A DNA stretch of 64,000 bases, taken from NCBI GenBank assembly GCA_030710605.1, contig CP092876.1, positions 63,674,115-63,738,114 of the forward strand, written 5' to 3'. This document shows positions 2,600-57,215 of the stretch, in pieces; position 1 is the stretch's first letter; each line of letters opens with the position of its first letter. The position numbers were made by a program, and so were the translations under genes. Origin of the DNA: Cordylochernes scorpioides (lineage: Eukaryota; Arthropoda; Arachnida; Pseudoscorpiones; Chernetidae). The notes beneath the pieces were generated by a model. That model saw only the letters and a program-made list of their open reading frames with translations, searched no databases and was not told the DNA's origin.

Positions 2600-4550
2600 T
2601 AATTGTTGGTATTTGAAACAGAACCAATGATTAATTTGGCCGCTTTTGCTTGAACACTGTCTAGTCTTCTTTTTAGTGATGAACTTGAGGGAGCCCAAAC
2701 AGGTGTTGCATATTCCATTATTGGCCTTATTAAGGTGATATATGCTGTTCTGAGAATTTTGGGTTTTGCTCCCCAATTTGTTCCATATAGCCTTCTCAGA
2801 ATGTTTAGGTTTCTGGTAGCTCTATTTGAGGTGCTAATTATGTGTTCTGTAAATCGCAATTCCTCATCAAGTATCACACCTAGGTAATTTGCAGATCAAA
2901 TTTTATCGATTAAATGATTGTTTATGCTTATTTTGGAGTTGAATTCATGCCTTTTTTCCTGTCAGTGAAGGAGACCTATAGGTTTGTGTTTATTGGGTTT
3001 ATCGTCATTTTGAGTTTCATTGCCCACTTCTCCAGTCCTCTCATTGATGTGTTCAGTATTTTTCTGATATTTCTGTACTGCTACTTGTGTGCCATATGGC
3101 TATATAATCTGCATAACAGGCAACTTTTGTGTCTTCAGTGAGGATGGATATTGTTAAGGTTGTGTCGTAATTAGATGTACAACAACTCAAACTTGACCAT
3201 GAGTCTTTTTTAGCTCTTATTCTTTCCGTTTGGCCAACAACAAATGTCCAATTTATATACACCTATATTTTTTACATAATGAGGCTTTAAATAATACGAA
3301 TAATATTCTTCTATTTACATAAACAACAGTTAATATATAGCGAGAAGAGTAGAGGACTGAGCACAGATCCCTGAGGTACACCAGCCCATGTTCTTCGGTC
3401 CTTGGAAAATGTTCCATTGACCCGAACCGTCATCCTTCTTCCCCTTATGAAGTCTGTAATCCAGATTATGGTTTTTTCTCTTACTCTGATGTTGTGCAGC
3501 CTTTCAAATAATTTCTACACTCGATAAAAAGCTGAGGTCTTATCCAGGAATACGGCCGTTGTCTTCTTTGGCGGTTTTTGCTAGAAATCTATTATTGATT
3601 GACAGAAGTAGAACAGTTTATCAGTTGTACAGTGTCTGGATCTTTAGGCAGTTTGGTAGAAGTTTATTTTATTATTTTTAGTGAGCCAGACTATGAGCCT
3701 AGAGTGGATAATTCATTCTGTTATTTTACAAAGTATGCTGGTGAGATCAATTGGCCGATAGTTCTTGTATTCCTTGGCATCTTTGTTTGGTTTCAGTATT
3801 GGCACTATAATTGATATCTTCAAATTCTTTGGTAGTTTACCAGTTCGCCATGAAATGTTCAGCATTTGTAGGAGTTGATTTTTAGCTTTGTCTCCAAAGT
3901 GTTTAATCATTTAACCAAAAATTAGATTATCTCCTGGTGACCTCTTGGATTTAACTTTTCTATTGATGAGTTTAGCTCATTCAGTGTGAAGTCTCTCGAG
4001 TAAATATATTGTTGATGGTAATTTCTTGCTTGTTTAACTAATCAGTTTATATTATTTTTTAGAGTCCTGCCTTCATTTGTATTGCTGAGTCTGGAAGTGC
4101 TTGAAAAATATTCAGCAATTATTTCAGTCATCTGTTTGTTTGTTCTCGCTATTCATATCGGTTAGAGTATTGGAGGATCAGTGTTGGTTTTGATTGTTTT
4201 ATAACACTAATTATATTCCAGTGATGGCTTTCCTTTTTTGGATCCATTTTTTTTCGCAGAATTCTGCCCATTTTTCTCTCTCTCTCTCTTGTTTGAATAT
4301 CCAAATTTCTTGTTCTATTTTGTGACTAATTTCAATGAGTTCCTTTATGATTTCTTCTGTTTTATTTGTTTTAAAAGGTTCATTGATATTGTCTCTCTTT
4401 GCAATCATTGCCTCGATATTGTGGTCCTTCCAGTAAAGTATTCACAGGTCTTTACGTCTACCTCTAGGTATCGATACTTTTGCAGCTTTGGATATGTTCG
4501 AAGAGAATTTTTCCAATTTTTTGTCAATCGTTCTGTAATTTAATTCTTCG
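2600..4550 (-). pseudogene. LINE reverse transcriptase domain, broken
   Basis: Minus-strand fragments match LINE reverse transcriptase: a fingers segment (about 3713-3910, reading KISIIVPILKPNKD then YRPI), the palm catalytic box (about 3090-3110) and the thumb/connection segment (2599-2877, ending RLDSVQAKAAKLI). The catalytic YADD box reads YADY, so one metal-binding aspartate is lost in addition to the frameshifts. The piece lies between the endonuclease and RNase H remnants in the expected order. It is certainly inactive, and the family assignment is firm only to the level of an RNase H-bearing LINE. Confidence 0.8.
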
Positions 4551-4619: not shown

Positions 4620-5393
4620 TTAGAATTTTAGGGTTGTTAAAATTGGTCTGTGGTCACTGATTGCACTTTTCAGAATTTTCCATTGTGTTGTGGGTGCGAT
4701 GTTGTAATTTATCGCTGTGATGTCTATTGCGGATTCTGTGCCTGTGGACTTGGATAGATAGGTGTTCTTTTCGTTATTTAACGGTGTAAGGTCGAGGTCG
4801 GTTAGCATGTCCTCAACCTGCTGACCTTTGATATCCTGGACAGGTGATCGCCAAATTGGTCTTTCGGCGTTAAAATCACCAAGTATGATTGCGATATCCG
4901 AAGACGCTTCACTTAATGTCTCTATCAGGCCTGTATTGATGCTAGTATTATTGTGGTGATAAACATTTATGATTGGAATTGTTTTATCTGTAAGATAGAT
5001 TTCTATTCACTGAGCTTCTGTCGTGATTTCTCTAGGCTTACTCTGATTATAGGCGATTTTTTAAATTTGATTTCTGAGGTTTTAATCAAAACGGCAAGTC
5101 CTCCTCCGAATTTTCCCGGTCTGTCCTTTCGTAGTGTTGTATAATATTTGATATTGAATCTCAGATTCTGATTCAATTTTGTCTCCTGAGGACAAGAAAT
5201 ATGTACATTGTTGTCACAGAGAAGACAAGTCAGCTCTTTATTTTCCTCTGGGTACCATTTATATTGAGTTGTAGTAGATTGAATTGTGTCCTCGTAGTAG
5301 ATTTCTCATCATGAGCTCGAGTTGCAGCTCCTGACGCGGCGGTTACCCCGGACGCGGTAGCATTACTGGAGATATCAGTTTTGCTCTTCATTT
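4620..5393 (-). pseudogene. LINE endonuclease domain (EEP/AP-like), broken
   Basis: In broken frames the minus strand shows the expected order of endonuclease motifs: QET near the start, a GGG-A-L segment, GDFNA, and SDHRPI near 4640. These are the metal-binding and catalytic signatures of the apurinic-like endonuclease that nicks target DNA for target-primed reverse transcription. A likely pol start (MKSKTDISSN) lies at about 5393. At least three frame changes separate the motifs, so no functional nuclease can be made. The downstream RT remnant continues on the same strand, consistent with a single ancestral ORF2. Confidence 0.8.
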
Positions 5394-7729: not shown

Positions 7730-7815
7730 TAACTACGACTGCATTAACATGGAATAATCCTCAAGATAATCAAAAAATCAACAGAAATCTCATTTTATTT
7801 ATAATATATATATAT
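7715..7815. repeat. Dispersed repeat ending in (TA)n, copy 1
   Basis: The block ACGACTGCATTAACATGG through the (TA)n at 7805-7818 recurs at 19955-20055 with the same (TA)n at its end. This suggests a repeat family that itself ends in a TA microsatellite. Class unknown. Confidence 0.6.
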
Positions 7816-7912
7816 ATTAAAACTAATGAAGGCACATCCCGACCAAAACCCATTTTCCTTCATTATTTTTAATATCAACACCTGACCTATTTAGTTTTTA
7901 TTTTTTCTCATC
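7806..7912. repeat. Short snapback relative of the 350-bp hammerhead unit
   Basis: After (TA)n the sequence resembles the GGCATATCCTGACC part of the 350-bp unit, then turns round and ends with the reverse complement of GGTCAGGTGTTGAT, another unit motif. Direct and inverted pieces of one unit joined in about 100 bp mirror the larger arrays at 18.6 and 53.8 kb. It contains no hammerhead core. Confidence 0.5.
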
Positions 7913-7925
7913 TATATATATATGG

Positions 7926-11789: not shown

Positions 11790-12290
11790 ATTACCTGGCA
11801 TCTACCTGCTGGGATCTACTGGCGGGCAATGTGCATGGTTTGTGGGTCTCACAGGGATGGATATATTGCAGTTAATGTGCATGTTCAATTGGGTGTTGAG
11901 CATTACAGGGCTGGATCTTTTGCAGCTAATATGCATTTTCGATTGATTTGTTGACTTTACAGGGCTGAATCTATTGCAGCTAATGTGCATGTTCAATTGG
12001 TTGGTTAGCTTCACAGGGATGGATTTTTTAAGCTAATGTGTATGTTCGATTTGTTGGTGAGGATCACAGGGATGGATCTATTTCAGCTATTGTGTATGTT
12101 AAATGGATTTTGTGGGACACACAGGACTTGATCTATTGCACTTAATGCGCATGTTCGATTGGCTTGTGGGCCTTACAAGGATAGTTCTATTGCATCTAAT
12201 GTGCATGTCCGATTGGTTTGTAGGTCTTACTGGGCTGGATCTATTGCAGTTAATGTGCGATTTCGAAATATATGAATTCCATAAGAATTG
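11790..12290. repeat. 53-56-bp minisatellite
   Basis: About nine degenerate copies of a unit containing CACAGGGATGGATCTATTG, CAGCTAATGTGCATGTTCGA and a TTGGTTTGT segment. The ORFs at 11763-11954, 11802-12014 and 12103-12291 merely read through it. Confidence 0.85.
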
Positions 12291-13100: not shown

Positions 13101-16100
13101 GGTTCTATTTCTTTGGTTCTTATGACGGGTATTTATTGACGGTCAATGTTCAGTAATGTTCGAATCACCCAAACCTGAACAGAATATCTGTCAAATGCTG
13201 AAGCCGTAGAGCTAATATTAAGCTCAAACACTTTATAATTTTGCGCATATTAATTTATAATTTTGGCATGATGTGGATATTTACAGAAAGATGACACACA
13301 TTTCTTTATAAAAAAGTACAAAAATAGGCATATTAATACAGTTTAGAATAGGAGAGGTTCCTTGTTAGTAAATGAATATACTTTTTTTCTTGCTTACTCT
13401 TGCTCTTTATATATCCATGAAAAACATAGCTTTTAAACTCTCAAAACGCCTTCTCACCGACATGCAAGATGATATTTTTATAGAAAAATGTAGCATATAT
13501 ATTTATATATTGAATATATAGAGTGAATTTTTAAAGTTTACATTCACTCCATTAAAATAATTACAATTTATATTGTACCTATTTTTTTAAATGTACAATT
13601 ATTGAAAAGAGTTAATGCCTCATATAACCCTTCACACTCCTAAGAATTTTGTTTAGAAATTTTAAGTTTATAAGACATTTCAGCGTGTTCATTTTACAGA
13701 ATCCTTTGACGTCTTGGTTGACAGATTCATTGTGGTTTGTCATCTTTGAACTTGTTGTCGTTGGAAAATTCATCTTCTATAAATGGTCATCTTGGCAATT
13801 TAAAGATTATTGGCGGACCTAAAGGAAGAATCGAACATTTTGCTTCATGCCCCGTCAAAGATATTTTGATCTTAACATTCCTGCTTTTACAATAAATAAA
13901 TATATCGTTTTTATTTTGTGATCTATTGATTCATATTTATATTCATATATGTATATCCTAAATAACGATTATTGTTATTAACATGTATAATAAATTGACA
14001 TTTATAAGATTTTTGCAAGAAAAATAAAATCGTTTTATTTTTTCAATTTTCAATGTAACGGTGCTTTTTATCATCCTGATTATATTTGGTAACTTCAGAG
14101 GTGTCAAAAGAGCTCCAGCAGCCTTCGTCTGACATACGCTGGCCCTTCCATCACCAAGTTTTAATTTAAAAAATCTCACCTCGAGAGCGCCCAACTTTCT
14201 AATTTTTCACCACCCGCGTTAAATTAATAAAGCAATTTTAGCAAGGACGCTAACACGCAATTATTCATGGTAATAAATGATGTCTTATTTAGTCATTTTT
14301 AAAGTCTTAAAAATTGATTTTAATTTTTAACCTTATTTTGGTATAATTTATTATGAAATAATTTTCAAACTTTATATAGACCCCGTCAGGTCGATGTAGA
14401 AGTCCATTATTCAGACTCTGCAACAATAGATTTTCCTCGCTCTGAAACAGTCTTCTTCGAGCCCAGACCTCAGCCATTTTAACACTCAATTAATAGGTTA
14501 AATTTATACTTCGTGCAAATATTAGCATATGCATATTCAAATAGCTTTAGCTTTACTCGTATCACATAACTAAATTTCAACCTTCCTTACATATGCATCC
14601 TGTTTTATTATAAAATAAAGGCTTAAAAGATTTTGCGATTTGAACGGTAATTTATTTTCTGGCTTTTGTTTTGTTTCCATGAATTATATTTTCAAAAATA
14701 TATTACCATGACAATTTATTATTTCAATGTTTTAATATCATATTTACTTCGTCTTAGCTTTTGATAATAATCAAACACAACACTTTAATTACATATATAT
14801 GTTTAAGATTTAGATTTTTAATGACAAAACTATTGTTAACCATGCGCTGTATGGGATTGACAATGAAAACGCGAGAAGAATCTCTGCTCTGGTGTATTTA
14901 AGAAGACAAACAATTACTTAACGTATAAAAAATCAGAAAATACGAACACGTCAGTTTACGCTAGACAGACGACCTAACCGACTGCCCAAGTTGGCTTACG
15001 GTAGGTGCGTCCGTGCTTTCTGATTTGTTGTACTTCCCCTGCCCATCTGGATACCAACGATGTCGTCTGGGACGTATCGCTCCTTTTTGGCTTCGAAGTA
15101 ACTACATTATGACATAGAAAATGTGGAAATAAACCCCTGATATTATAATTGCAATTTATTTTATTACAAAATCATTTTTAAAACACAAGAGAGACAATGA
15201 GTGAATATCAAAATTAATATATTCTTAGAATAACAAATATTATATTACAATATATTCAAAATGATTCTACCTACTCTTCAAGTTACTCATGGAACTATGG
15301 ATAGCCTACGTTTATGTAAAGAATTTTCTCAAACTCAGATATATCTGTCTTATTTTTTATTTTACGCAAAAGCAACAAAACTAACTACTGCGGGAGAGGA
15401 ATGTCTTTCCTTTTTACATACCACGTACAATAAGATTTATATAAATTGTTCAGAAACCCGTAATCAACCTCACAGTCTTCAAGTCACGGTATATGCCAAT
15501 TCATGTGCATGGATTAATTCTTAAATGAATCGAATGCATTTGTATCTTTTTTTATTTTTACAAAAGAGATGTGTGGCAACCACAGTATGCTTCTCAGACT
15601 ATCTTTCTTGTGTTTGAAGAAATAATAAAATACATTCTTTCATGAAACAAGTCGTTATTCCAAACATTTTTTTATTGAAATTAATCCTATGCTTTATTGT
15701 ATAAAATTCATTTGCTAGTTTAGAGTTTGTTCTGTAAAATATAGATCCTTCACCGTTTTTTATTTGTTTTTAAAATGGTACAAAAGTGATTATGTACTGG
15801 GATCAAGTGGATATATTAAGAAATAAGGCATCTCCTGATTGTGTAACTAAAATTTGATGATGACTTGCCTTTTTCTTTTTCATTATTTAGTCGTTTATTT
15901 TTCCACGACGTTTTTCGTCGACTCACTGTTATCCTCCGCAGGAAAATATTATTGAACTCTAGAACATATTTAGAATCTTAAATCTAAGAACTACATACCC
16001 TGAGGGGGTAGACATTGATTTACTAATGTGATAATATCTTAGAAAAATATTATTCCTATAACTGTGGGTGTGACATAATTATTCTAACTTCAGGCGTCAT

Positions 16101-16799: not shown

Positions 16800-16970
16800 G
16801 ACTAACTTATAAATTTCGAAAAGAAAGCTTTTTCGAGCTGTTGACCCTCATCAGCGTAGTTGATGCAGTATGTACCTCAATGACCAAATTTCGGTTTGAA
16901 GGTTTTCCGAGAAATCAAGAAATGGGGGTATTGAGACCTAATTTCTGTAAATACGCTATTCATATAAAAG
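16800..16970 (-). repeat. Ancient diverged relative of the 350-bp hammerhead unit
   Basis: The plus-strand segment with CCTCATCAGCGTAG, then AATCAAGAAATGGG, then GTAAATACGC follows the same order and spacing as in the 350-bp units. On the minus strand CTGATGA (16854-16848), a 4-bp stem with CAACA loop, and GAAA (16834-16831) are retained. Stem I no longer pairs. Confidence 0.5.
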
Positions 16971-18557: not shown

Positions 18558-18769
18558 TATATATATATTAAAAAACGAAAGAAAAAAAAAAAAGATAAAA
18601 AGATCAGGTGTTGAAATCAATATTAAAAATGGCATATCCTGACCAGGAGCACATGTGCTTTTCAGAAGGCAGAGCGCCATCTGGTGGAACAGAAATCAAC
18701 TATTCATTGATTTAGACTGTTCCCTGATATTTGGCCAACCCAATTTCTTGATAAATCAAGAAAAGCCAT

Positions 18770-18809
18770 CCACGAACGCGTTTCGCGCTTTTGGCGCTCG
18801 TCAGCGTGG
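18770..18809 (-). ncRNA. Type I hammerhead ribozyme, unit 1
   Basis: Minus strand, 5' to 3': stem I CCACG (18809-18805), core CTGACGA, stem II GCGC-CAAAA-GCGC, core GAAA (18784-18781), stem III CGCG closed by A15.1-U16.1, then U17 and stem I CGTGG (18774-18770). Every conserved core position is present. The predicted cut is between 18775 and 18774. Stem III is only 2 bp with a 2-nt loop, as in retrozymes, where two tandem copies are thought to cleave as a dimer. Confidence 0.88.
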
Positions 18810-19119
18810 AGTAGGCTGAACCATTGCGACCAAAAAATAATTTTTGATCCCAATGGCTTCCTGAAAAACCAAGAAATGGGTATTTAAGGCCAAACTTGCG
18901 TAAATACGCTTAGCACATTAAAAAACGAAAGAAAAAAATAAAAGATAAAAAGATCAGGTGTTGAAATCAATATTAAAAATGGCATATCCTGACCAGGAGC
19001 ACATGTGCTTTTCAGAAGGCAGAGCGCCATCTGGTGGAACAGAAATCAACTATTCATTGATTTAGACTGTTCCCTGATATTTGGCCAACCCAATTTCTTG
19101 ATAAATCAAGAAAAGCCAT

Positions 19120-19159
19120 CCACGAACGCGTTTCGCGCTTTTGGCGCTCGTCAGCGTGG
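19120..19159 (-). ncRNA. Type I hammerhead ribozyme, unit 2
   Basis: Same 40-nt motif as in unit 1, exactly 350 bp away; all core bases and stems I-III are conserved. Cleavage here and at unit 1 would release a 350-nt monomer from a minus-strand transcript. Confidence 0.88.
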
Positions 19160-19470
19160 AGTAGGCTGAACCATTGCGACCAAAAAATAATTTTTGATCC
19201 CAATGGCTTCCTGAAAAACCAAGAAATGGGTATTTAAGGCCAAACTTGCGTAAATACGCTTAGCACATTAAAAAACGAAAGAAAAAAAATAAAAGATAAA
19301 AAGATCAGGTGTTGAAATCAATATTAAAAATGGCATATCCTGACCAGGAGCACATGTGCTTTTCAGAAGGCAGAGCGCCATCTGGTGGAACAGAAATCAA
19401 CTATTCATTGATTTAGACTGTTCCCTGATATTTGGCCAACCCAATTTCTTGATAAATCAAGAAAAGCCAT

Positions 19471-19510
19471 CCACGAACGCGTTTCGCGCTTTTGGCGCTC
19501 GTCAGCGTGG
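19471..19510 (-). ncRNA. Type I hammerhead ribozyme, unit 3
   Basis: Same motif; spacing from unit 2 is 351 bp because of one extra A in the A-rich part. Core and stems are intact. The unit is cut short about 30 bp further on, where the inverted tail begins. Confidence 0.88.
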
Positions 19511-19675
19511 AGTAGGCTGAACCATTGCGACCAAAAAATAATGGGTTGGCCAAATATCAGGGAACAGTCTAAATCAATGAATAGTTGATTTCTGTTCCAC
19601 CAGATGGCGCTCTGCCTTCTGAAAAGCACATGTGCTCCTGGTCAGGATATGCCATTTTTAATATATATATATGTT

Positions 19676-20788: not shown

Positions 20789-20820
20789 CGGAGGGTGTTT
20801 CCTTTCAAATGAAACGATTT
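20789..20820 (+). repeat. Left TIR of the DD41D transposon
   Basis: CGGAGGGTGTTTCC followed by TTTCAAATGAAACGATTT; pairs with 22035-22066 with one mismatch. Confidence 0.92.
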
Positions 20821-20911
20821 TCGAGCGCTCGCGTTTTGCACGACACTGGTTCCAATAGATCTAGAATCTTCTGGAGAATTCATTTTCATCAGGTATCATG
20901 ATTTTTGCAAC

Positions 20912-22024
20912 ATGGGGGGAGAGAGACTAACGCTCCAAGTCGAACAAACAATTCGGACCCTTTCCAAAGAAGGAAACAGTTATAGCGTCATAGTGAAAAA
21001 TCTAAAAGCAGAAGGATTAGATGTTGGCAAAGCTACAATATGTAGGGTAGTAAATGGCATCGGAAAGAAAAGGGAAGCTGAATCCAATGGGCAAAAATTT
21101 CAAGTCGATCGACCACGTCCGGTGCGGACCCCCGCCACGGTTTCCAAGGTAAAGCGGCTAGCAACTACTGAAAATCCACCATCTCAGCGCCAACTTTCCA
21201 GAATGTGTGGAACATCGCTAAAAACGATAAATAACATCATTCACAAAGATTTGGAACTGGATACCCGACGAAAAGGCAAGGTTCACAAGCTCACCCCTTT
21301 CCACATGAAAAACCGTGCAACGAATGCCCGGAAGCTCTACGAGGAACACCTGGCCGGTTCCAGATCGGAATATACTGCAACATTGGACGAAGCATGGATG
21401 TATGTGACGTATTGCAATGGAATCCGGAAGATCTGTTACATCAAAAGAGGCAATCAGGTCCTGGATAATTGGGTTCACCAATGCTCCGAAACTTTCCCTA
21501 AAGGTTTCATGGTTGTCGGGGTAATGACTGGCCGTGGAGTCCTTCCGCTCATAAAGGTTCCATCGAAGGTGAAGGTGAACTCAGAATTCTATATAGAATG
21601 CGTTCTGAAACCTGTCATCGAACAACTGAAGGACCTTTACCCAGGGGAAATGGACAAAGTGTTCCTTCATCACGACAAAGCCTCTTCCCATACCTCCAAC
21701 AAAACCCAACAGTTCCTACAAGAAATGAAGGACACCCTAGGCCTAAATTTTATCAGGAACTCGGACATTCCAGTGAAGTCTCCCGACGCCAGCCCACTGG
21801 ATTTTTACGGGTTCGGTATGTTGAAACAACGGCTCTTCAACCGACGTCCCAAAACTGAGGCCGGACTTTGGAAAGCCGCACAAGAGGAGTGGTCGAATGT
21901 TTCGCTCTCCAAAGTCAAGGAAGTGTTCGCAGCTTGGAAAGTCCGATGCAGGGAGATAGCCAAGAAGAAGGGGAAGCACATAGAACACATGAAAAAAATT
22001 CACGTTCGAAAAATAAAGTTCTAA
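20912..22024 (+). CDS. Transposase, Tc1/mariner superfamily, DD41D, 370 aa
   Basis: Cut-and-paste DNA transposase acting on the TIRs that flank it. Residues 8-52 look like a first helix-turn-helix and about 85-125 a second (RQLSRMCGTSLKTINNII), linked by a basic RPRP segment at 67-70: the usual paired-type DNA-binding half. The catalytic triad is D159 (TLDEAWMY), D255 (FLHHDKASSH) and D297 (SPLDFYGFG). There are 41 residues between the second and third Asp, the DD41D arrangement known from the rosa/Visitor-type groups. The tail is strongly basic. The start is the first in-frame ATG, 91 bp inside the left TIR; an ATG at 20898 is out of frame. No stop or frameshift, and length is normal for the superfamily. 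No exact match to a named element can be claimed without a search. Confidence 0.93.
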   Translation: MGGERLTLQVEQTIRTLSKEGNSYSVIVKNLKAEGLDVGKATICRVVNGIGKKREAESNGQKFQVDRPRPVRTPATVSKVKRLATTENPPSQRQLSRMCGTSLKTINNIIHKDLELDTRRKGKVHKLTPFHMKNRATNARKLYEEHLAGSRSEYTATLDEAWMYVTYCNGIRKICYIKRGNQVLDNWVHQCSETFPKGFMVVGVMTGRGVLPLIKVPSKVKVNSEFYIECVLKPVIEQLKDLYPGEMDKVFLHHDKASSHTSNKTQQFLQEMKDTLGLNFIRNSDIPVKSPDASPLDFYGFGMLKQRLFNRRPKTEAGLWKAAQEEWSNVSLSKVKEVFAAWKVRCREIAKKKGKHIEHMKKIHVRKIKF

Positions 22025-22911: not shown

Positions 22912-25000
22912 TAGATGAGCCCCGAGAGTGAAAGGGTTTATCCGGGTTTAAACGGGTAAAGCCTCTCTAACACAGGTAACTAATTAAAATTTCTTTTAAT
23001 TAATTTAAACTGTGAGGTTAAAAAGGGCTATGACAAGATGTTTTGTTTGGATATATCTGAAAATTATAAAAAATAAAACTTATGTTTAATTTAAAAGTTA
23101 TGATATTCATTATAAAAGAGAAATTTAGATAAAACCTTTGTTTGATAAAAAAAAATAATGATGATAAAAAATAAAATTATGTTCTAAGAGATTGTCGGCG
23201 GGCGTTGAAAAGGGTTAGGGGTTAAAGAATAAGCAATTGTAAGTATTACACCTGCAACCAAATACTTAGATCCAGGTGCAAAGCGAGGATATTGACTTGA
23301 TCGTCTTCCTAGGCAATGTTTCACTTGTGATCCTGTTTAAGTTACAGTGCTTTGTCACAATTGTAGAGTTATTGGGTTGAAAAGTTGTTGAAGTAAAAGT
23401 TGTTCATTAATATGATTGAAAGGGGTGAAATGGAGAACCATGCTATAAGTAGAATTGTTGTATCGACAGTAGGTGATCTGACTTGACTTAAAATCAAAGG
23501 TTGATTGTGGTCCGCTAGAGCTAAAAAAATTGTGAGTGTGAACGCTTTGTGCATGCGTTGGTGTTTGTGCTCTGTGGATGATTGAAGTGAACCTTTGAAG
23601 CGTGTTCAAGCCAGAAGTTGGGATTTTTAAATGTGGGGAACTGTGTTCAAAGAGTTTGTTGAAATTACGAAATAAAAAAAAAATGTCAAGCAGTACTGTC
23701 GTTTTTCTACGTTGATGTGAGTAATGGCGGAGAAATAGATTGTAGTGTAAAGTACACTGAAGTGGTTAGAGAAATAGATTGTTGTATACAATTGATGTAT
23801 GCCCGATAGTTGATGATTAACATGGTCATATTATATAATGTATAAAAACAAATATAAAATGAATAAAAGTATAGCAATGTGATTGTGGTTGAATAAAGTT
23901 TAAGTAGACAAAATCAAAGATGTAATATATAAAAGTGATAATAATGAAAATTAAAGTGATTTTTGAAAACAAATAAATGTTTTGTAATACTAAAATAATA
24001 TTATGAAAAATAAAAGTATTTTTTTAAAAATAATATTGGATTAGAAACTTGTGATTATATAATTTAAAGGTAAAAAATAAAAAAATAAAATATATATAAT
24101 ATTTTATACAAAAACAGAATATAATTAAAGATTATTACAATGAGTAGATGAAGGTTTAGTATTTCTTCTAAAAAGAAGTTACAAATGTGGTGTGTAGGTT
24201 TTATAAATCTGAAATTGAGAAGCGCAATTTATTGCTTGGATTGGTTACTAAAATGTTGTGTATTGTGATCTCAATTCAACATGTAAAATGTTTGATATGT
24301 AGAAAAAAATAGAGATTTACACAGGATTGAAATATCAAAATGTTCAATTTAAGGTAGGTCTTGTTCAAATTTAAATATCTAAATGCTTAAAAGTTAGGTT
24401 AAGATATCGACTGCTAATGTAAAAGGTGTGGAATTAAAAGGAATGCGGGACACGCTCCAAATTTTCTGGAGGCGAGTAAGGGGGAAGTGTGGCAATGGAT
24501 TTATTGATGCGGGAATGGTGTCTCGAGATATTTAGTTTATCGTTACTAGGGCCTCTGGTAGGTTAACTAGCGGTGTCCATTTTTACGATCGGGGTGCGAT
24601 GTGTATTGTTTTTGAAGGGGGAGAAATGTGGGTTGTCTACAGCGCACGAACGTTAAATTCTTTCTCTCCTAGTTTGGATCTGGTGGGTTCAAAGAAATCT
24701 TCATATTGTGTGAAATAGAGTAAGTAATACAGATCCAAATGGGTTGGTGTAATGTAGATAGAATAGGATTTTGAATTTAACGGGAAATTTTCTGGTCGCT
24801 ACTTGAGGTTTGTTTTAAAACGATCGATGTTAAATAAATCTGGATTTAAATGTAGGAATGGCTGGGAAGTTTGAGGCGGTATAATTCGGTATAGTTGCGT
24901 CTCGAAGCTATCTGGAGTCAAATGATTGAATTCATTGAGATATACATCTTGAGACATTCGCTGTGGGTTTTGAACGAATCGGGTTTGTGGAGGTGTGATG
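22912..25000 (-). other. Interior of the Gypsy element downstream of integrase, no ORF
   Basis: AT-rich sequence between the integrase end and the 3' LTR, with no env or other recognisable protein. Blocks near 23200-23640 are shared with the second LTR element at 49.4-49.9 kb. Confidence 0.6.
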
Positions 25001-25690
25001 TACAGAACATTCTCTGTGTAATATTTTAATTTATTGACATGTATAGTGTCACTGTCTCTATCGAGAGGTTGATTGGGGCGATCTATTCGAACGACATTGG
25101 GTGAGATTATTTCAATTATTGTGTATGGTTCAGTAAAATATGGTGCTAATTTACCTGTGTCGGGATGTCTATGATTTTTGACCTAAACAAGATCATTCAC
25201 TTCGAAATGTGGTATTCTGTGCTGCTTATAAAATGTTTCTTTATCTTTTTATGCTTATTCTGGGTACGAGAGCGTGCTATCTCTCTAGCTCTAGTTATTT
25301 CGGGGTATGGATTAAGATGAATTTTAGATCTGGGGGAATAAAATTGAACATTAAATAGGTGGGTGGAAAACTTGTGACAGAATGGGGTGTGTTATTATAC
25401 GTCTGAGTGACGCGTTTAACTATTTGAGTCCAGAAAGTTTTTGGATTTTCTAGATAAGCCAGTCTGAGCTTGTCTGTAATGGTCGCATTTAAGCGTTCTA
25501 TTAAACGTTTTCTTGTGGGTTATTGCTTGTGGTGAGTAGGGTTGTATACCATGTGTTATTAGAAATTTACGGAATTTTTCTGAGGTAAAAGTGGGCGCTC
25601 TGTCAGATAACAGACGTTTTGGAAATCCTTGTTCTAGTACAGTGTTGAGGGTTTGAATGTACGTTAGGGTATTGATTTACTGGTTAAACT
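25000..25690 (-). pseudogene. Integrase remnant of the Gypsy element
   Basis: In broken minus-strand frames: the second catalytic Asp in LSDRAPTFTSEKF (about 25610-25580), the catalytic Glu in ERLNATITDK (about 25505), a TYNNTPHS segment (about 25395), then a C-terminal DNA-binding part with EVNDLV (about 25195) and TGKLAPYF (about 25150), ending HVNKLKYY near 25025. The N-terminal zinc domain and first Asp are not seen. Integrase inserts the cDNA into host DNA; this copy has several frameshifts and an in-frame stop. The wording fits Ty3/Gypsy rather than Copia or BEL. Confidence 0.8.
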
Positions 25691-27983: not shown

Positions 27984-28160
27984 TATATATATATATATAT
28001 ATATAATGTTAAAATAAAAAAAGACATATCCTGACCAGGCTCACATGAACATTTAGATTGCAGAGCGCCATCTAGTGAAACAGCAATCAACTAAACGTTG
28101 ATTTAGCCTGTTTCCTGATATTTGGCCAATAAAAAATAATAAAAAAGTCAGGTGTTCGTA
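27984..28160 (+). repeat. Solo fragment related to the 350-bp hammerhead unit
   Basis: Directly after (TA)n the sequence follows the 350-bp unit from its GGCATATCCTGACC side: ACATATCCTGACCAGG, then GAGCGCCATCTAGTG, then CCTGATATTTGGCCAA. It then jumps to GTCAGGTGTT. The hammerhead part is missing. The left end falls at the same unit position as the outer ends of both arrays. Confidence 0.65.
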
Positions 28161-28184
28161 ATAAAATCGATTGTTTGAAAATTA

Positions 28185-28690
28185 TATATATTTTTTAATT
28201 ATTTTTTCACATATATGATGTTATTTATGTGTGAGAAATTTTGGAGAGTGGGAAAAATTGTTTGCTCGTGTTTGTCTAGGAAATTATAAAGTTTATAATT
28301 GTGTATATACGCTAAACATGTGTAAAAATAATAAAAAAAGTGTTTGTTATTAAAATAAATAAAAATATATTATTATTTTATTTTTTTATTATTTTTCACA
28401 TAAATGATGTTGTTTATGTGTGAGAGAGATTGGAGAGTGAGAAAAATTGTTTGCTCGTGTTTGTCTAGTAAATTATAAAGTTTATCATTGTGTATATACG
28501 CTAAACATGTGTTGAAATAATAAGAAAAAGGTCAGGTGTTTGTTATTAAAATAAAAATAAAAACATTTTTATCATTATTATTTATTTTTCCCCCCCATTT
28601 ATGATGTTGTCTATGTGAGAGAGAGATTGAGGAAAAAATAGTTTGCCCGTGTTTGCTCAGTAAATTATAAAGTTTATCATTGTGGCAGCC
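28185..28690. repeat. Three ~190-bp tandem repeats
   Basis: Units at about 28190, 28375 and 28570 share GATGTTGTTTATGTGTGAGA, TTTGCTCGTGTTTGTC and TATATACGCTAAACATGTGT. The last phrase and the GGTCAGGTGTT that follows resemble the junction of the 350-bp units. No hammerhead core is seen. Confidence 0.75.
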
Positions 28691-28815: not shown

Positions 28816-29352
28816 TATATTTTTATAACTCCCTCTCCTTTTTTTATTACTTTTTTTTTCAAAATTCGTGTGAAAACTCTCCTGTAGCGATATTTTGTTT
28901 ATACTTTTATTACTCTTATTCGAAAGTAAGTAAATTAAAATGTTTATGGAAATAGAATATTGTCCATATTATAAATATATATATCAGTTTTTTTTCTCCC
29001 CATTGAATATAACAAAATATTTTTAAAACCTAATTCTGTTGACGTTATGTGGCGCTGAGTTTGTTGTTGACACACATTAAATATGTTATAACACTTTGAT
29101 AAAGGTTGGCGTTTAGCCAACTGAACCAATTTTGCCTTTTTAATTAAATATATTTGTGTGTTAAAAGAAAATAATATGATTCATTAGCATGCCATCTGTT
29201 ATCAAAATTCGAAACTATTATATACGCGTAGAAATTGTTTAATTTCAAAAAGAATCATACACGTCTATAATAGTTTCGAATTTTCATAAGAGAATATATC
29301 TCTAAAGATAATGTTCCTCTCTCAGTAAAATTAACATAAAGACTATGAACTA
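28816..29352. other. AT-rich spacer
   Basis: No gene recognised. A local inverted repeat (29207-29225 and 29262-29283, AAAATTCGAAACTATTATA type) could fold into a hairpin. Confidence 0.4.
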
Positions 29353-29575
29353 TTTCTTAAAATTAAAGATACTTCGACCAGTAAGTGTTTTTATTATCTC
29401 GACGTTTCGACAAAAATATTTTGTTCTCGTCAGGAATAAATAATAATTAAACCATTGGCGAAACGCCTTGCGCAAATGCTTTAAATTTAATTTTTATTTT
29501 TAAGAATTTTGTCGAAACGTCGAGATAATTGAAGATTTACTGGCCGAAGTAACTTTAATTTTAAGAAAATATGAA
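29353..29575. repeat. Inverted-repeat element with hammerhead-like arm
   Basis: The left arm (29356-29440: TTAAAATTAAAGATACTTCG, then CCAGTAA) and right arm (29505-29575: TTACTGGCCGAAGTAA, then CTTTAATTTTAAG) are inverted copies. Both contain GTCGAAACGTCGAGATAAT. The left arm, on the minus strand, also carries CTGACGAG. Confidence 0.65.
29388..29444 (-). ncRNA. Hammerhead-like motif (GAAACGTC family)
   Basis: Minus strand: CTGACGA (29433-29427), a bulged stem II of about 7 bp, GAAA (29408-29405), two bases, U16.1 and C17, then GAGATAAT. All core bases are present, but stem I has mismatches and stem III is a single pair. Relics of this kind are common in Penelope-like repeats; activity is doubtful. 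Confidence 0.4.
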
Positions 29576-30165: not shown

Positions 30166-30236
30166 CCATCGGTGATTCAGTTGTAGAATGCTCGCCTGCC
30201 TCGCGGGAGGCCTGGGTTCGATTCCCGGCCGATGCA
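30166..30236 (+). tRNA. tRNA-Gly(GCC)-like gene
   Basis: A full cloverleaf folds: acceptor CCATCGG with CCGATGC (only the first pair mismatched), D stem ATTC/GAAT, anticodon stem CTCGC/GCGGG with loop CTGCCTC (anticodon GCC), T arm CTGGG-TTCGATT-CCCGG, discriminator A. A run of thirteen T follows, a strong Pol III terminator. Base 37 is T instead of the usual A. It sits about 145 bp before a Helitron 3' end, so it may be a captured or SINE-like copy rather than a working gene. Confidence 0.7.
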
Positions 30237-32134: not shown

Positions 32135-32810
32135 CATGGATGGACAGGCTGTGCTACGAGGAAATCGCCAGGAAGGACAGGCTATGCTGTAAAGACATCG
32201 TTACAATATGCGCAATTTGCTGTGAAGACATCGTTAGAATATGCGCAATGTGCTGTTAGGACATCGTCAAGATGGGTAGGCTGTGTTGTAAGGACATCGC
32301 TAAAATATACCAACTGCACTGTAAGGATATGGCTAGGATGGAAAGGCTGTGCTGTAAAATTATTGTCAGGATGGAAAGGCTGTGCTGTAAAATTATTGTC
32401 AGGATGGAAAGGCTGTGCTGTAAAAACATGGCTAGAATCGACCGGGTGTGCTGTAAGGACATCGCCAGGATGGACATGCTGTTTTGTAAGGACATTGCCA
32501 GAATAGGCAGACTAGGCTATGAGGATAGCGCTAGAATCGGTGAGCAATGCTTTAAGGACATCGCCATGGATGGGCAGGCTGTACTGTATGGGCATCCCGG
32601 GAATAAGCAGGTTATTCTGTAAGGACATCACCAAGATGGACAGACTATGCTGTAAGGACATTGCCAGGATGGGCAGTCTTTTCTATAAGGACATGGCTAG
32701 AATAGCACGCTGTGCTCTGAGATATCACCAATATGGACAGAAGGTGCTGTATATAATAGCCACAATGTGCTCTAAGACATCGCCAGGATGGACAGGATAG
32801 CAGAAAATAT
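32135..32810. repeat. 33-bp minisatellite
   Basis: About twenty imperfect copies of AGGATGGAAAGGCTGTGCTG followed by TAAAATTATTGTC (variant AAGGACATCGCC). Because 33 is divisible by three, reading frames stay open (for example 32222-32506 and 32272-32622); I do not consider them genes. Confidence 0.95.
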
Positions 32811-32839
32811 ATCACCATCGGCGAATTCAGAAAATAACC

Positions 32840-33450
32840 AAAGGCCGAGGTTAGAACATGACCAAAGACTCAGGTTGAACATGGCCCAAGGGAGAGGTTG
32901 AAACATGGCCAAAGACTGTGGTTGGAACATGGCCAAAGGATGAGGTTGGAACATGGCCAAAGGATGAGGTTGACACATGACCTAAGGGTGAGGTTGGAAC
33001 GTTGACAATGGATGAGGTTGGAACATAGCCAAAAGATGAGGTTGTAACATGACCTAAGGATGAGGTTGGAACATGGCCAAAGGATGATGTTGACACATGA
33101 CCTAAGGGTGAGGTTGGAAAGTTGACAAAGGATAAGGTTGGAACATAGCCAAAAGATGAGGTTGGAACATGACCTAAGGATGAGTTTGGAACATGACCCG
33201 AGGATGAGGTTGGAACATGGCCGAAGAATGAGGTTGGAACATGGCCGAAGAATGAGGTTGGAACATGGCCGAAGAATGAGGTTGGAACATGACCTAAGGA
33301 TGAGGTTGGAACATGGCCGAAGAATGAGGTTGGAACATGGCCAAAGGATGAGGTTGACACATGACCTAAGGGTGAGGTTGGAACGTTGACAAAGGATGAA
33401 GTTGGAACATAGCCAAAGGATGAGGTTGTAACATGACCTAAGATTGGATG
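32840..33450. repeat. 24-bp minisatellite
   Basis: About twenty-five copies of AGGTTGGAACATGGCCAAAG plus GATG. The 216-codon minus-strand ORF 32851-33501 (octapeptide GHVPTSSF-like) and the plus-strand ORF 33138-33389 are products of the 24-bp periodicity. Confidence 0.95.
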
Positions 33451-39635: not shown

Positions 39636-41210
39636 GGCGGCCTCGATTTCATTACAACCTACTTGTGATTTATTCGTTAACACCAACTTTACGTTTTATA
39701 ATTGGGCGATAACTTAAAATGCATTTTTAAAATACATTTTTAAAGGCAGTTGGGTCACTTTTGGTACATTAACTTCATTCTACTGAACAACTATACATTG
39801 TATATATATTTTTATATATTTGAAGGTGTTATAAAATTACAAAACTATTTTAGATTGAAAATAGAGTATAATATTATGATCATAAATATAGTTTACCTCA
39901 ATATATTAAAAATTTAGAAGCGTAGTTTTCAGAAAAAATATATTCTTAAATTGTAATATATATTTCTATACATAGAAACTAATGAAAAAACAATAGAAAA
40001 AATAAAAGATAAGTGGGTCAGGTGTTGATATTTAAAACTATATAGAAACTAATGTGACATAGAAAGCGAATATTTTATATTTCAGATCGCTAAGCAAATC
40101 TTAAAGGAAATTTCAATATATCATAATTATGTGAAGGGTGGTATTATTAACTATTTGTCTAACTATTAAAATTAGTTCTAACTCTTAAACCAACTTCTTT
40201 TCAAATTGACACTCGGAACGAGAGAAACAACATGCCCGGCTGTCCAATTAATTCTTGCCTTCGAGTCAAATTAAGCCATGACAAATGGATTCCTCGGTGA
40301 AAATTTAATGGCCGACTTAAAAAGTGGCGTTCATTCAATTAAATGTTCGTCTCAGATTGTTGCTAGGATTGAATTAAGTTTTTCTGTCGCCCAGAGATTG
40401 GCTTAGAGTTGCTTTAATACCATATATAGAGAATTGTACACCTTTCTTAACTCGGGTATTAAAACAGCCACTCTGATTGAAATGGTATTAACAAACGCAA
40501 ATTTGTAGGAAATTAGTCATGTGATTAGTTTGGCAAACATTTATTGGTTGATTATTTTTCTTGTTAAGCGTGCGCGACCATCCAAATTAGATTTTCCATT
40601 CCAATCAGAAAAGGATTGCCTAGCTTTACATACTGGCTGAAGGATTAGAGTAGCTGGAAGGGAATATTAAGTTGAGAATTCTAAAGGTTTTACATTTTTT
40701 TGGTCTGAAAGGATTCCTTTTACATTCTAGTGAATAGGTTCCTAGAAAAGTGGTATAATAGGTACTTGATTAAAATATTCTATTTGCCCGCCCAACAATC
40801 TATCTGATATTTAATTAAGAAATTAAAATAATAAACAGACTTCATTTTTGCCACACAATGCCGATACAATATATGAATTAGGTAAATATATTTCTATAGT
40901 CTATAGAGCATATTTACATATTTCACTTAAAATGTACCCCTCTACTGAATTCTATAACAAATTCACACACAGGTTATATAGGAAATTTCGTCTAACACAA
41001 TATCAGAAAGAAATATAGGGATTAAACTGACGAAACTAATGAAAGGGTTTACCACAGATGCCCTCCCTCTTACTATTTTTATTCATTGTAGTATAGGGCC
41101 TGTGTAGGTGGAATAATCTTTCATTAATTATTTATAATTTAAAGATATAGATGGTACTAAGTTGAGGTGATTATATATGGTATTTTGATATATATTAATA
41201 AAAATAAAAA
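39636..41210. other. AT-rich stretch with a unit relic and a possible conserved island
   Basis: 39990-40060 repeats the AAAATAAAAGATAAG...GTCAGGTGTTGAT part of the 350-bp unit. 40200-40620 is non-repetitive, of higher GC, and has four AATTAA-type sites (for example CCAATTAATTC and CAATTAAATG). No genes. Confidence 0.4.
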
Positions 41211-43298: not shown

Positions 43299-44184
43299 CT
43301 AGCGGACCCGCCCGGCTTCGCCCGGGTTTTACCCGAGTAAAAGTTTGTCTAACGAATCTCTCGATAAAGTGAACATTTTTTTCCCGGTCCCTTGAAAAAT
43401 ACTCGATAAGTTGAATAAAATCAATATTAATTGGTTCCCTCGGTAATTGGAAGTTAAAGGAATAGTATCTTGCCTTGGAATTGTATCATTATTCTTGTAT
43501 GGATGTACCCGGCTTCGCCCGGGTTTTACCCGAGTAAAGGTTTGTTTAACGAATATCTCGATAAAGTGAACATTTTTTCCCGGTCCCTTGAAAAATACTC
43601 GATAAGTTGAATAAAATCAATATTAATTGGTTCCCTCGGTAATTGGAAGTTAAAGGAATAGTATCTTGCCTTGGAATTGTATCATTATTCTTGTATGGAT
43701 GTACCCGGCTTCGCCCGGGTTTTACCCGAGTAAAGGTTTGTTTAACGAATCTCTCGATAAAGTGAACATTTTTTCCCGGTCCCTTGAAAAAATACTCGAT
43801 AAGTAGAATAAAATCAATATTAATTGGTTCCCTCGGTAATTGGAAGTTAAAGGAATAGTATCTTGCCTTTGAATTGTATCATTATTCTTGTCTCAAATAA
43901 ATTGCCGTGTCATCCTGAATTTTGTCTTTCCTAATTTTCTACATTACAAAATCATCGTATCATCATGATAATATTTAGAGCAGATTGTTGAATTATAACA
44001 GATAAATTAGAATAATTATCTTGATTATTTCTAGGCGAAAAGTTATTTCAAAAATTTTATTTGCTAGAAACCTTCCCAGTACTATACTAAATAACTTCCC
44101 AAAGTTTCATGGCGATCCAATGAGTGGTTTGGTCAGGCATAAAGGACAAACAAACAGACATACATTCATTTTTATATATATAGA
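43299..44184 (-). mobile_element. Helitron-like non-autonomous element with triplicated 3' end
   Basis: Minus strand: 5' A|TC at 44184, continuing TCTATATATATAAAAATG; 3' end with hairpin CCCGGGCGAAGCCGGG, GCGGGTCCG and CTAG|T at 43302-43299. The 3' terminal ~197-bp segment, hairpin included, is present three times (hairpins at about 43311, 43508 and 43704). Nothing is coded; the 66-codon ORF at 44021-44221 crosses the 5' end. Its termini fit arthropod Helitrons, and repeated 3' ends are what rolling-circle read-through would produce. Confidence 0.75.
43303..43895. repeat. ~197-bp tandem triplication of the Helitron 3' end
   Basis: Three near-identical copies from CCCGGCTTCGCCCGGG to ATTGTATCATTATTCTTG; periods 197 and 196 bp. 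Confidence 0.9.
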
Positions 44185-53825: not shown

Positions 53826-54039
53826 TATATATATATATTAAAAAACAAAAGAAAAAAATAAAAGATAAAAAGATCAGGTGTTGAAATCAATATTAAAAAT
53901 GGCATATCCTGACCAGGAGCACATGTGCTTTTCAGAAGGCAGAGCGCCATCTGGTGGAACAGAAATCAACTATTCATTGATTTAGCCTGTTCCCTGATAT
54001 TTGGCCAACCCAATTTCTTGATAAATCAAGAAAAGCCAT

Positions 54040-54079
54040 CCACGAACGCGTTTCGCGCTTTTGGCGCTCGTCAGCGTGG
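54040..54079 (-). ncRNA. Type I hammerhead ribozyme, array 2 unit 1
   Basis: Identical in core, stem I (CCACG/CGTGG), stem II (GCGC-CAAAA-GCGC) and stem III to the motif at 18770-18809. Confidence 0.88.
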
Positions 54080-54389
54080 AGTAGGCTGAACCATTGCGAC
54101 CAAAAAATAATTTTTGATCCCAATGGCTTCCTGAAAAACCAAGAAATGGGTATTTAAGGCCAAACTTGCGTAAATACGCTTAGCACATTAAAAAACAAAA
54201 GAAAAAAATAAAAGATAAAAAGATCAGGTGTTGAAATCAATATTAAAAATGGCATATCCTGACCAGGAGCACATGTGCTTTTCAGAAGGCAGAGCGCCAT
54301 CTGGTGGAACAGAAATCAACTATTCATTGATTTAGCCTGTTCCCTGATATTTGGCCAACCCAATTTCTTGATAAATCAAGAAAAGCCAT

Positions 54390-54429
54390 CCACGAACGCG
54401 TTTCGCGCTTTTGGCGCTCGTCAGCGTGG
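54390..54429 (-). ncRNA. Type I hammerhead ribozyme, array 2 unit 2
   Basis: Same 40-nt motif, exactly 350 bp from the previous one. Confidence 0.88.
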
Positions 54430-54739
54430 AGTAGGCTGAACCATTGCGACCAAAAAATAATTTTTGATCCCAATGGCTTCCTGAAAAACCAAGAAATGGG
54501 TATTTAAGGCCAAACTTGCGTAAATACGCTTAGCACATTAAAAAACAAAAGAAAAAAATAAAAGATAAAAAGATCAGGTGTTGAAATCAATATTAAAAAT
54601 GGCATATCCTGACCAGGAGCACATGTGCTTTTCAGAAGGCAGAGCGCCATCTGGTGGAACAGAAATCAACTATTCATTGATTTAGCCTGTTCCCTGATAT
54701 TTGGCAAACCCAATTTCTTGATAAATCAAGAAAAGCCAT

Positions 54740-54770
54740 CCACGAACGCGTTTCGCGCTCGTCAGCGTGG
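54740..54770 (-). ncRNA. Hammerhead with deleted stem II, array 2 unit 3
   Basis: A 9-bp deletion removes the loop and one strand of stem II, leaving CTGACGA-GCGC-GAAA. Stem II cannot form, so self-cleavage should be lost or weak. The deletion accounts for the 341-bp period of this unit. Confidence 0.7.
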
Positions 54771-55080
54771 AGTAGGCTGAACCATTGCGACCAAAAAATA
54801 ATTTTTGATCCCAATGGCTTCCTGAAAAACCAAGAAATGGGTATTTAAGGCCAAACTTGCGTAAATACGCTTAGCACATTAAAAAACAAAAGAAAAAAAT
54901 AAAAGATAAAAAGATCAGGTGTTGAAATCAATATTAAAAATGGCATATCCTGACCAGGAGCACATGTGCTTTTCAGAAGGCAGAGCGCCATCTGGTGGAA
55001 CAGAAATCAACTATTCATTGATTTAGCCTGTTCCCTGATATTTGGCCAACCCAATTTCTTGATAAATCAAGAAAAGCCAT

Positions 55081-55120
55081 CCACGAACGCGTTTCGCGCT
55101 TTTGGCGCTCGTCAGCGTGG
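55081..55120 (-). ncRNA. Type I hammerhead ribozyme, array 2 unit 4
   Basis: Intact 40-nt motif as in unit 1. Unit 5 ends before its hammerhead. Confidence 0.88.
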
Positions 55121-55736
55121 AGTAGGCTGAACCATTGCGACCAAAAAATAATTTTTGATCCCAATGGCTTCCTGAAAAACCAAGAAATGGGTATTTAAGG
55201 CCAAACTTGCGTAAATACGCTTAGCACATTAAAAAACAAAAGAAAAAAATAAAAGATAAAAAGATCAGGTGTTCAAATCAATATTAAAAATGGCATATCC
55301 TGACCAGGAGCACATGTGCTTTTTAGAAGGCAGAGCGCCATCTGGTGGAACAGAAATCAACTATTCATTGATTTAGCCTGTTCCCTGATATTTGGCCAAC
55401 CCAATTTCTTGATAAATCAAGAATTCTTGATAAATCTTGATTTATCAAGAAATTGGGTTGGCCAAATATCAGGGAACAGGCTAAATCAATGAATAGTTGA
55501 TTTCTGTTCCACCAGATGGCGCTCTGCCTTCTGAAAAGCACATGTGCTCCTGGTCAGGATATGCCATTTTTAATATTGATTTCAACACCTGATCTTTTTA
55601 TCTTTTATTTTTTTCTTTTGTTTTTTAATGTGCTAAGCGTATTTACGCAAGTTTGGCCTTAAATACCCATTTCTTGGTTTTTCAGGAAGCCATTGGGATC
55701 AAAAATTATTTTTTGGTCGCAATGGTTCAGCCTACT

Positions 55737-55776
55737 CCACGCTGAAGAGCGCCAAAAGCGCGAAACGCGTTCGTGG
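55737..55776 (+). ncRNA. Type I hammerhead ribozyme in the inverted tail
   Basis: Plus-strand copy: CCACG, CTGAAGA, GCGC-CAAAA-GCGC, GAAA, CGCG, TT, CGTGG. The only change is the variable position 7 (C to A), which the hammerhead consensus CUGANGA tolerates. Confidence 0.85.
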
Positions 55777-55954
55777 ATGGCTTTTCTTGATTTATCAAGA
55801 AATTGGGTTGGCCAAATATCAGGGAACAGGCTAAATCAATGAATAGTTGATTTCTGTTCCACCAGATGGCGCTCTGCCTTCTGAAAAGCACATGTGCTCC
55901 TGGTCAGGATATGCCATTTTTAATATATATATATATATATATATATTTGCTTAT

Positions 55955-57110: not shown

Positions 57111-57215
57111 ATCGGGAAAAAGCCGTGGTTGGCTTTATCAAGAATATAGGTTGGCCAAATATCAGGGAACAGGCTAAATCAACGTTTAGCTGATTTCTGT
57201 TCCACTATATTATAA
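57110..57215 (+). repeat. Fragment of the 350-bp hammerhead unit
   Basis: AAAAAGCCGTGG, GGTTGGCCAAATATCAGGGA, then TGATTTCTGTTCCA, in the order of the inverted tail of the arrays. The ribozyme core is lost. Confidence 0.6.

Follow-up and report, generated by a model that had tools for sequence, protein, structure and literature searches.

The 64,000-nt stretch of Cordylochernes scorpioides DNA analysed here (the window) contains two arrays of a 350-nt hammerhead-bearing repeat. The repeat is a non-autonomous metazoan non-LTR retrozyme, a known kind of element, whose insertion architecture appears to be new, with two fixed starts and one of each per insertion. Comparison of the copies makes it probable that an enzyme of the Penelope-like element (PLE) type cut both strands of the target and that both ends primed on one circular RNA. 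The literature covered, which lay mostly outside subscription papers and preprints, contained no mention of retrozymes with inverted arms, with paired start sites or with arms that share alleles.

Array 1 comprised a long minus-strand arm (18567..19542) of 2.8 head-to-tail 350-nt units (Tandem Repeats Finder: period 350, 99% matches) and an inverted short arm on the plus strand (19535..19664; 130 nt, unit positions ~167-297), which was 98% complementary to the long arm and overlapped it by a few bases at the junction. Units are numbered on the RNA strand from GTGCTAAGCG, with CUGACGA beginning at position 113. The RNA 3' end of the long arm (18566/18567, minus strand), termed the outer start (unit position 350), was fused to (TA)n, and so was that of the short arm, termed the inner start (~297). 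The initial annotation had placed three direct 350-bp units, each with a minus-strand type I hammerhead, in the interval 18558..19675. Tandem Repeats Finder, the motif and the Rfam model RF02275 all agreed on these units, and the reading of the interval as tandem units held, except that the 130-nt inverted partial copy inside it (19535-19664) had been overlooked. Array 2 (53837-55926) had the same plan of direct units followed by inverted units: a long minus-strand arm of 4.6 units (53837..55423) with its outer start fused to (TA)n, and an inverted plus-strand arm of 495 nt or 1.4 units (55432..55926) with its inner start fused to (TA)n. This array, the closing inverted arms of both arrays and the genome copy number were additional to the earlier finding. 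MicroRNA matches at 55349-55508 were dismissed as the palindromic arm junction of array 2.

Several smaller copies were also found in the window. A short, divergent two-armed insertion of the retrozyme kind was recognised by eye at 7815..7913, with the inner end on the left, the outer end on the right and TA-rich flanks. A minimal minus-strand insertion (39972..40054) contained little beyond the tail, from the outer start to about the inner start, and was bracketed by copies of ATAGAAACTAATG at 39972-39984 and 40042-40054. Diverged fragments lay at 28011..28129 (minus strand; unit positions 179-298, 83%, with one end close to the inner start) and 57134..57205 (plus strand; positions 162-233, 89%). 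Two further minus-strand fragments, at 15772..15868 (79%) and 16831..16888 (81%; decayed, including the hammerhead core), belonged to a second family, B.

The unit had a G+C content of 39%, and the longest stop-free stretch of array 1 spanned 78 aa and that of array 2 65 aa; neither array carried a reverse transcriptase gene. The monomer folded as a circle reached -111.8 kcal/mol (z -7.3 against 100 shuffles) and was highly self-paired. The unit size and G+C content were within the range used for metazoan retrozymes (~150-450 bp in tandem, low G+C). The earlier reading as a retrozyme fits the testable features, whereas its grouping with PLE terminal repeats was not upheld for a unit without a long open frame.

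On the minus strand, each unit of array 1 carried the motif CCACG-CUGACGA-GCGC-CAAAA-GCGC-GAAA-CGCG-UU|CGUGG. The hammerheads were located at 18755..18820 (expected cut 18775/18774), 19105..19170 (19125/19124) and 19456..19521 (19476/19475). The predicted cut after unit position 142 maps to 18775/18774 in the first unit, the site that the initial annotation had given. All three units matched RF02275 (Hammerhead_HH9) at 31.3 bits, with E-values of 1.6e-5 for a 1.5-kb search and 6.8e-4 for the whole window. These matches came from permissive scans and lie below the gathering score of 52, and for this reason a default Rfam scan at the gathering threshold listed no hammerhead in the window. The comparison with Rfam hammerhead models proposed earlier was thus borne out in permissive scans and not above the gathering threshold. 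In array 2, the whole-window RF02275 scan located minus-strand hammerheads at 54025..54090, 54375..54440 and 55066..55131. The hammerhead of the third unit (54725..54781, minus strand) had a 9-nt deletion, which reduced the unit spacing to 341, and had no RF02275 match; the deletion takes away one strand of stem II together with the loop, and this copy is probably dead. It was the only one of the eight hammerheads in the two arrays without part of stem II. The plus-strand hammerhead of the inverted arm (55726..55791) read CUGAAGA, a change at variable position 7.

The folding energy of the 66-nt hammerhead stretch was unremarkable (z -1.36 against shuffles), and its lowest-energy fold paired part of the core. 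Folding energy was uninformative here; the evidence for the hammerhead comes from the motif, from its repetition and from comparisons among copies. Across about 50 insertions, the core varied in 7 of 615 insertion-by-site cells vs 756 of 16454 in the rest of the unit (Fisher p 3.5e-6); in the hammerhead outside the core, 34 of 1277 cells varied. A motif pattern allowing at most five substitutions, which is biased towards intact cores, picked 133 hammerheads including overlapping loci, or 42 distinct rows without repeats. In these 42, the stem II pair was C-G in 25, G-C in 11 and another combination in six, and 37 were paired when G-U was counted. Family B, a retrozyme of 341 nt that is ~75% like family A, differed from A by matched changes in stem II (C-G to G-C) and outer stem I (C-G to U-A). 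In a four-row A/B alignment, 60 of 60 cells paired and two pairs were changed on both sides, vs none when partners were slid. The number of matched changes was itself unexceptional (2 vs a shuffled mean of 1.7; reached in 343 of 500 shuffles), because A and B differ once each; the cells paired together with the covariation score stood out (12 of 500 shuffles). Judged from the conserved core and the matched stem I and II pairs that distinguish the two families, the hammerhead is real. An exact search of IMG/VR with the two-family hammerhead pattern returned zero matches.

Stem III consisted of an A-U and a C-G pair around two bases, in the palindrome ACGCGU, which amounts to one or two pairs and no full helix; the A-U pair was kept in 42 of 42 distinct hammerheads. 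The initial annotation had called each hammerhead complete. A type I motif was indeed present in every unit, but a hammerhead complete on its own was not, given that stem III closes poorly. The stem III of axolotl HHR_Amex1 is described as weak alone and efficient as a dimer (PMC7229834, in the text available). Because stem III closes poorly here and resembles that stem, the hammerhead probably cleaves as a dimer.

The genome (2.62 Gb, 24 contigs) contained 2058 exact copies of TATATATTAAAAATGGCATATCC, the inner insertion end fused to TATATATT, and 811 exact copies of the outer end of one subtype, vs 0 for the reversed patterns. We estimate about two thousand or more retrozyme copies. Family B adjoined several A copies (L012 at 2610-3546, L021 at 900-1400, L055 and L056). 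Its ends, ...GCCTTTTTCTTAA and ...TTTTTTCACAT, lay ~50 nt apart; the outer one, TTTTTTCACAT, was found fused to TATATAT 612 times in the genome. In the few fetched copies on which the pairing of B ends is based, the end sequences were unlike those of A and their spacing was close to that of A.

Fifty-nine genomic loci were fetched for comparison, 39 of them best matches, with a bias towards long recent arrays, and 20 on C1 (L054-L073). The latter were the first 20 of 100 listed among the 2058 inner ends, and all were chosen for an inner end. BLAST segments below 84-85% identity were removed before counting, and apparent duplicated insertions were present (L016/L017/L020, L032/L034 and L055/L056). 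The copies followed a common plan, in which a left arm of minus sense ran from unit position 350 or ~297 and a right arm of plus sense ran to 297 or 350. The arms met head-to-head, with the RNA 3' ends of both pointing outward. Both insertion ends were reverse-transcription-type starts fused to TA-rich target, the outer at 350 and the inner at ~295-297, ~50-55 nt inside. Both ends could be classified in 33 of 66 clusters (61 sequences), and all 33 had one inner and one outer end, with 0 inner-inner and 0 outer-outer combinations; 26 clusters had one classifiable end and seven had none. Three loci (L030, L044 and L072) carried, by eye, a short second arm that BLAST missed and would bring the count to 36 of 36; about a dozen insertions looked one-armed. 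Coordinates on C1 alone gave 17 inner-facing-outer pairs within 4 kb among the 100 inner and 37 outer ends listed, and no inner-facing-inner or outer-facing-outer pairs among these ends. Several of the 17 were also counted among the 33, and one, L039, which was left out of the arm list, had a second outer end.

Arm lengths and the unit positions at which arms met varied. Forty-one of 90 arms were longer than one unit, the longest reaching 2455 nt (seven units), and most outer arms extended past the inner start. At the junctions of 37 two-armed clusters, 20 had 0-4 shared bases, six had more than four and 11 had 1-39 extra nt. Unassigned sequence between the arms was at most 14 nt in 36 of the 37 and 39 nt in the other; clusters were built with gaps below 60 nt, so that longer foreign inserts between arms would escape detection. 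Ten of 90 arms ended at 160-167 (L055 and L056 among them probably represent one event), coinciding with the hairpin TTCTTGATTTATCAAGAA (unit positions 155-172; window 18745-18762 in unit 1), which was also kept in family B and at which reverse transcription may pause. Five of 90 arms ended at the hammerhead cut (139-145, a range set after seeing the data); this weak excess was set aside as a sign of a linear template.

The target was AT-rich, and the primer 3' ends were mostly ...AT. Exact target duplications of 12-14 bp with flanks other than pure (TA)n were present at seven loci (L010, L022, L026, L033, L042, L059 and L071), five of which had duplications beginning and ending in AT. A duplication of at least 12 bp, with one mismatch allowed, was found in 23 of 31 insertions vs 30% when flanks of different insertions were paired, with many calls ambiguous at (TA)n targets; two of the 33 (L029 and L038) had been dropped for want of a scorable junction. 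Among 14 insertions with non-repeat left flanks, nine had a duplication of at least 10 bp (control 22%) and five had none. The script scored no duplication for L040, where a 12-bp repeat is visible by eye.

The sequences within an insertion were compared with each other. Units differed by a median of 4.9% between insertions vs a mean of 0-0.8% within ten of the 36 multi-copy insertions, and these ten homogeneous insertions are taken, from sequence, as young. Some of the 36 insertions with at least two copies differed by 5-13% internally, which we ascribe to the age of the insertion. Scored at 26 diagnostic sites, 18 recent insertions of our own choice showed differences between their arms in 0 of 184 comparisons, vs 16.7% for shuffled arms and 5.7% in the lowest of 2000 shuffles. 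Over all 36 loci with copies on both strands, the arms differed at 23 of 384 vs 30.7% when shuffled. One monomer circle would be the simplest template for both arms. Copying by the reverse transcriptase of another element, as the initial annotation had suggested, is supported by the homogeneous multi-unit arms, the one-monomer arms of recent insertions and the PLE-style ends.

PLE sequences were abundant in the genome. A first look gave 17015 GIY-YIG (PF01541) candidates, and 146 of the 150 scored were matches. The listing included open frames of 828 aa (C1:8987892) and 768 aa (C4:92407184), candidates for a full-length PLE. Eleven close opposite-strand GIY-YIG pairs were seen by eye among the matches listed, and all 11 were minus-then-plus, i.e., head-to-head. 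Both arms were readable in three of the 12 fetched PLE loci (L075, L077 and L084), hammerhead-bearing copies in which, by eye, one arm had a ~30-nt tail and the other did not. In the window, a PLE fragment at ~29180-29440 carried a PLE-type minimal hammerhead, CUGACGAGAACAAAAUAUUUUUGUCGAAACGUCGAGA (29405-29433, minus strand), like those of L075, L078 and L084. The open frame of L079 found a protein with PF00078 and PF01541. L074, L079 and their relatives L076 and L080-L083 were PLEs whose open frame has GIY-YIG close to its beginning, which sets them apart from canonical Penelope. Against the 12 PLE loci, which cover few PLE families, the retrozyme unit showed no similarity at E <0.01, and none of the PLE copies examined carried the start sequences of the retrozyme. 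Their end sequences were different, their tail was ~30 nt vs 50-55 nt in the retrozyme, and the hammerhead lay ~50-55 nt from the nearer end (by eye) vs 155 and 208 nt from the two starts in the retrozyme. Because a matching partner PLE is missing, the tail lengths differ and the hammerhead is farther from the starts, we only infer the PLE enzyme.

In the text available, the purified anole PLE enzyme cuts ATT on both strands and initiates reverse transcription at two internal positions, which delimit the genomic 'tail' (PMC11167929). A typical rotifer Penelope is described as having an inverted pLTR, a 31-bp tail on one inverted pLTR and a 9-bp duplication (PMC3846280). PLEs have been called 'a strong candidate' for moving retrozymes on the basis of co-occurrence, tandem arrangement and the shared hammerhead (PMC7229834). 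The idea that circles serve as the template has had the same basis.

In the mechanism that we propose, a minus-strand array transcript would cleave itself at each hammerhead, probably as hammerhead dimers, and the 350-nt monomers would be closed into circles. Circular monomers have been shown for retrozymes of mussel, coral and axolotl. A Penelope-type protein with GIY-YIG endonuclease and reverse transcriptase would cut AT-rich DNA with a stagger of ~12-14 bp and expose two 3' ends, mostly ...AT. Both would prime on a single RNA circle, the outer start (~350) being used by one of them and the inner start (~295-297) by the other, and both cDNAs would travel around the RNA for anything from a few dozen nt up to seven turns. 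The cDNA 3' ends would then anneal through a few shared bases and be filled in. The outcome would be two arms of random length that meet head-to-head and have their RNA 3' ends outermost, together with a ~55-nt tail on only one arm and a target duplication. The end pairs, the variants shared in recent insertions, the multi-unit arms, the partial target duplications and the matched stem changes are read from the sequences, and we infer the circular template, the PLE enzyme and cleavage as dimers.

Two alternatives retain the PLE-type reaction and change the template. The template might have been a linear multimeric array transcript instead of a circle, with two-strand priming otherwise unchanged, which we regard as unlikely. 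Tandem source arrays do exist in the window, a homogeneous source array could likewise yield identical units, and for the anole PLE the dominant substrate is reported to be unprocessed RNA, with hammerhead mutants leaving insertion unchanged (PMC11167929, in the text available). However, the arms and units of a recent insertion are nearly one monomer sequence, though older arrays are internally diverse, and no copied flank of a source array was seen (at most 14 nt unassigned in 36 of 37 clusters, with cluster gaps below 60 nt). It is also rather improbable that the arms came from two separate identical RNAs, one for each subunit of a PLE dimer. Such a dimer is predicted for the anole enzyme (PMC11167929, again in the text available), and outer arms that pass the inner start, as most do, would be simple to obtain with two RNAs. 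The two RNAs would nevertheless have to match at 184 of 184 diagnostic comparisons despite variants that differ between insertions, and two RNAs alone leave unexplained why the two start sites are never identical.

The other alternatives dispense with a PLE-type enzyme. Ordinary target-primed reverse transcription by a LINE-type enzyme, with inversions formed by L1-like twin priming, seems very unlikely. Twin priming also yields 5' inversions and microhomology junctions, with a second primer that lands at variable sites. The window does contain LINE-type fragments (endonuclease, RNase H), and 15-bp duplications at Nematostella retrozymes have been likened to those of LINEs (PMC4918200, in the text available). 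In the present copies, in contrast to the varied sites of twin priming, all 33 two-ended insertions had a second arm beginning at the same fixed internal site; moreover, exact ends were abundant (2058 inner and 811 outer), no poly(A) tail lay beyond the unit sequence in which the arms began, and the rule of one tail per insertion is the PLE rule. If the element were a plain satellite or a MITE-like or foldback DNA transposon and the hammerhead incidental, target duplications, tandem units and two ends that both read TATATATTAAAAA inward would be accounted for. Such an origin is scarcely credible for elements whose arm lengths and junction positions vary, which lack fixed terminal inverted repeats around a constant interior, whose ends are two different internal sites of one unit, and whose hammerhead core is conserved while its stems change in pairs; unequal exchange does not produce head-to-head arms with fixed ends.

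Under the reading that we prefer, with PLE-type cutting of both strands and one circular RNA primed from both ends, the insertion anatomy gives in vivo evidence that a PLE-type machine is at work and that a single monomer templates the two arms. A broader proposal, to which we give about even chances, is that Penelope-type integration is an obligately asymmetric two-primer reaction. One complex would hold one RNA circle with docking sites 50-55 nt apart (~30 in PLEs), both strands would be cut, and two reverse transcriptases would chase each other round the circle; retrozymes would be to PLEs what SINEs are to LINEs, and their copies would record dual rolling-circle target-primed reverse transcription. 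The priming of two strands at two different places is a possible reason for the optional 'tail' of Penelope. Since two start sites are predicted, the claim is testable with one purified protein and one circular RNA.

The window also contained other repeats and mobile element fragments. A 196-bp repeat in three copies (43311-43891; 97% matches, Tandem Repeats Finder) had a unit beginning with CCCGGCTTCGCCCGGG, a hairpin-like palindrome, and a 41-bp repeat was present in ~45 copies at 34021-36285. Additional tandem arrays had periods of ~73 bp (645-1586), ~54 bp (11836-12266), ~189 bp (28181-28684), ~24-33 bp (32185-33442) and ~204 bp (58632-59048). A 403-aa plus-strand open frame (20813-22024) had no Pfam match at 1e-3; by eye it resembles a Tc1/mariner-type transposase. 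Retroelement fragments on the minus strand lay at 1987-2370, 4620-5003 and 24799-25182; they comprised RNase H, a LINE-type endonuclease and a frame like an integrase end, the last with matches below curated cut-offs. Two tRNA matches exceeded the Rfam gathering score, at 30166-30236 and at 320-377, the latter covering the model in part.

Among known systems, plant LTR retrozymes are likewise non-autonomous, with a hammerhead-processed circular RNA copied by another element, but they have type III hammerheads in LTRs, a PBS and PPT and 4-bp duplications, and probably use Gypsy machinery (PMC4918200 and PMC7229834, in the text available); the pseudoscorpion element has a type I hammerhead and no LTR structure. 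By description, its stem III resembles that of the amphibian (newt/axolotl HHR_Amex1) retrozymes, which have a single-pair stem III with a palindromic tetraloop and act as dimers (PMC7229834); their host and unit are, as far as seen, unrelated to those studied here. Metazoan non-LTR retrozymes in Mytilus galloprovincialis (350-390 bp), Acropora millepora and axolotl (330/350 bp) are likewise short AT-rich tandem repeats with type I hammerheads, arranged as dimers to multimers, gene-less, with a highly self-paired predicted circle and thousands of copies in genomes that also contain PLEs; the available text of PMC7229834 gives tandem repeats and target duplications, without inverted arms, a pair of fixed reverse-transcription starts or ends combined one of each. 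Canonical Penelope/Poseidon PLEs differ in having a reverse transcriptase/GIY-YIG gene, a minimal hammerhead and a tail of 30-40 nt, vs a gene-less unit in the retrozyme, whose hammerhead is fuller, with an internal loop in stem I, and whose tail measures 50-55 nt. As described in the available text of PMC3846280 and PMC11167929, these PLEs share with the retrozyme tandem and inverted head-to-head copies, a tail on one arm, a target duplication, an AT-rich target and two internal reverse-transcription starts downstream of the hammerhead.
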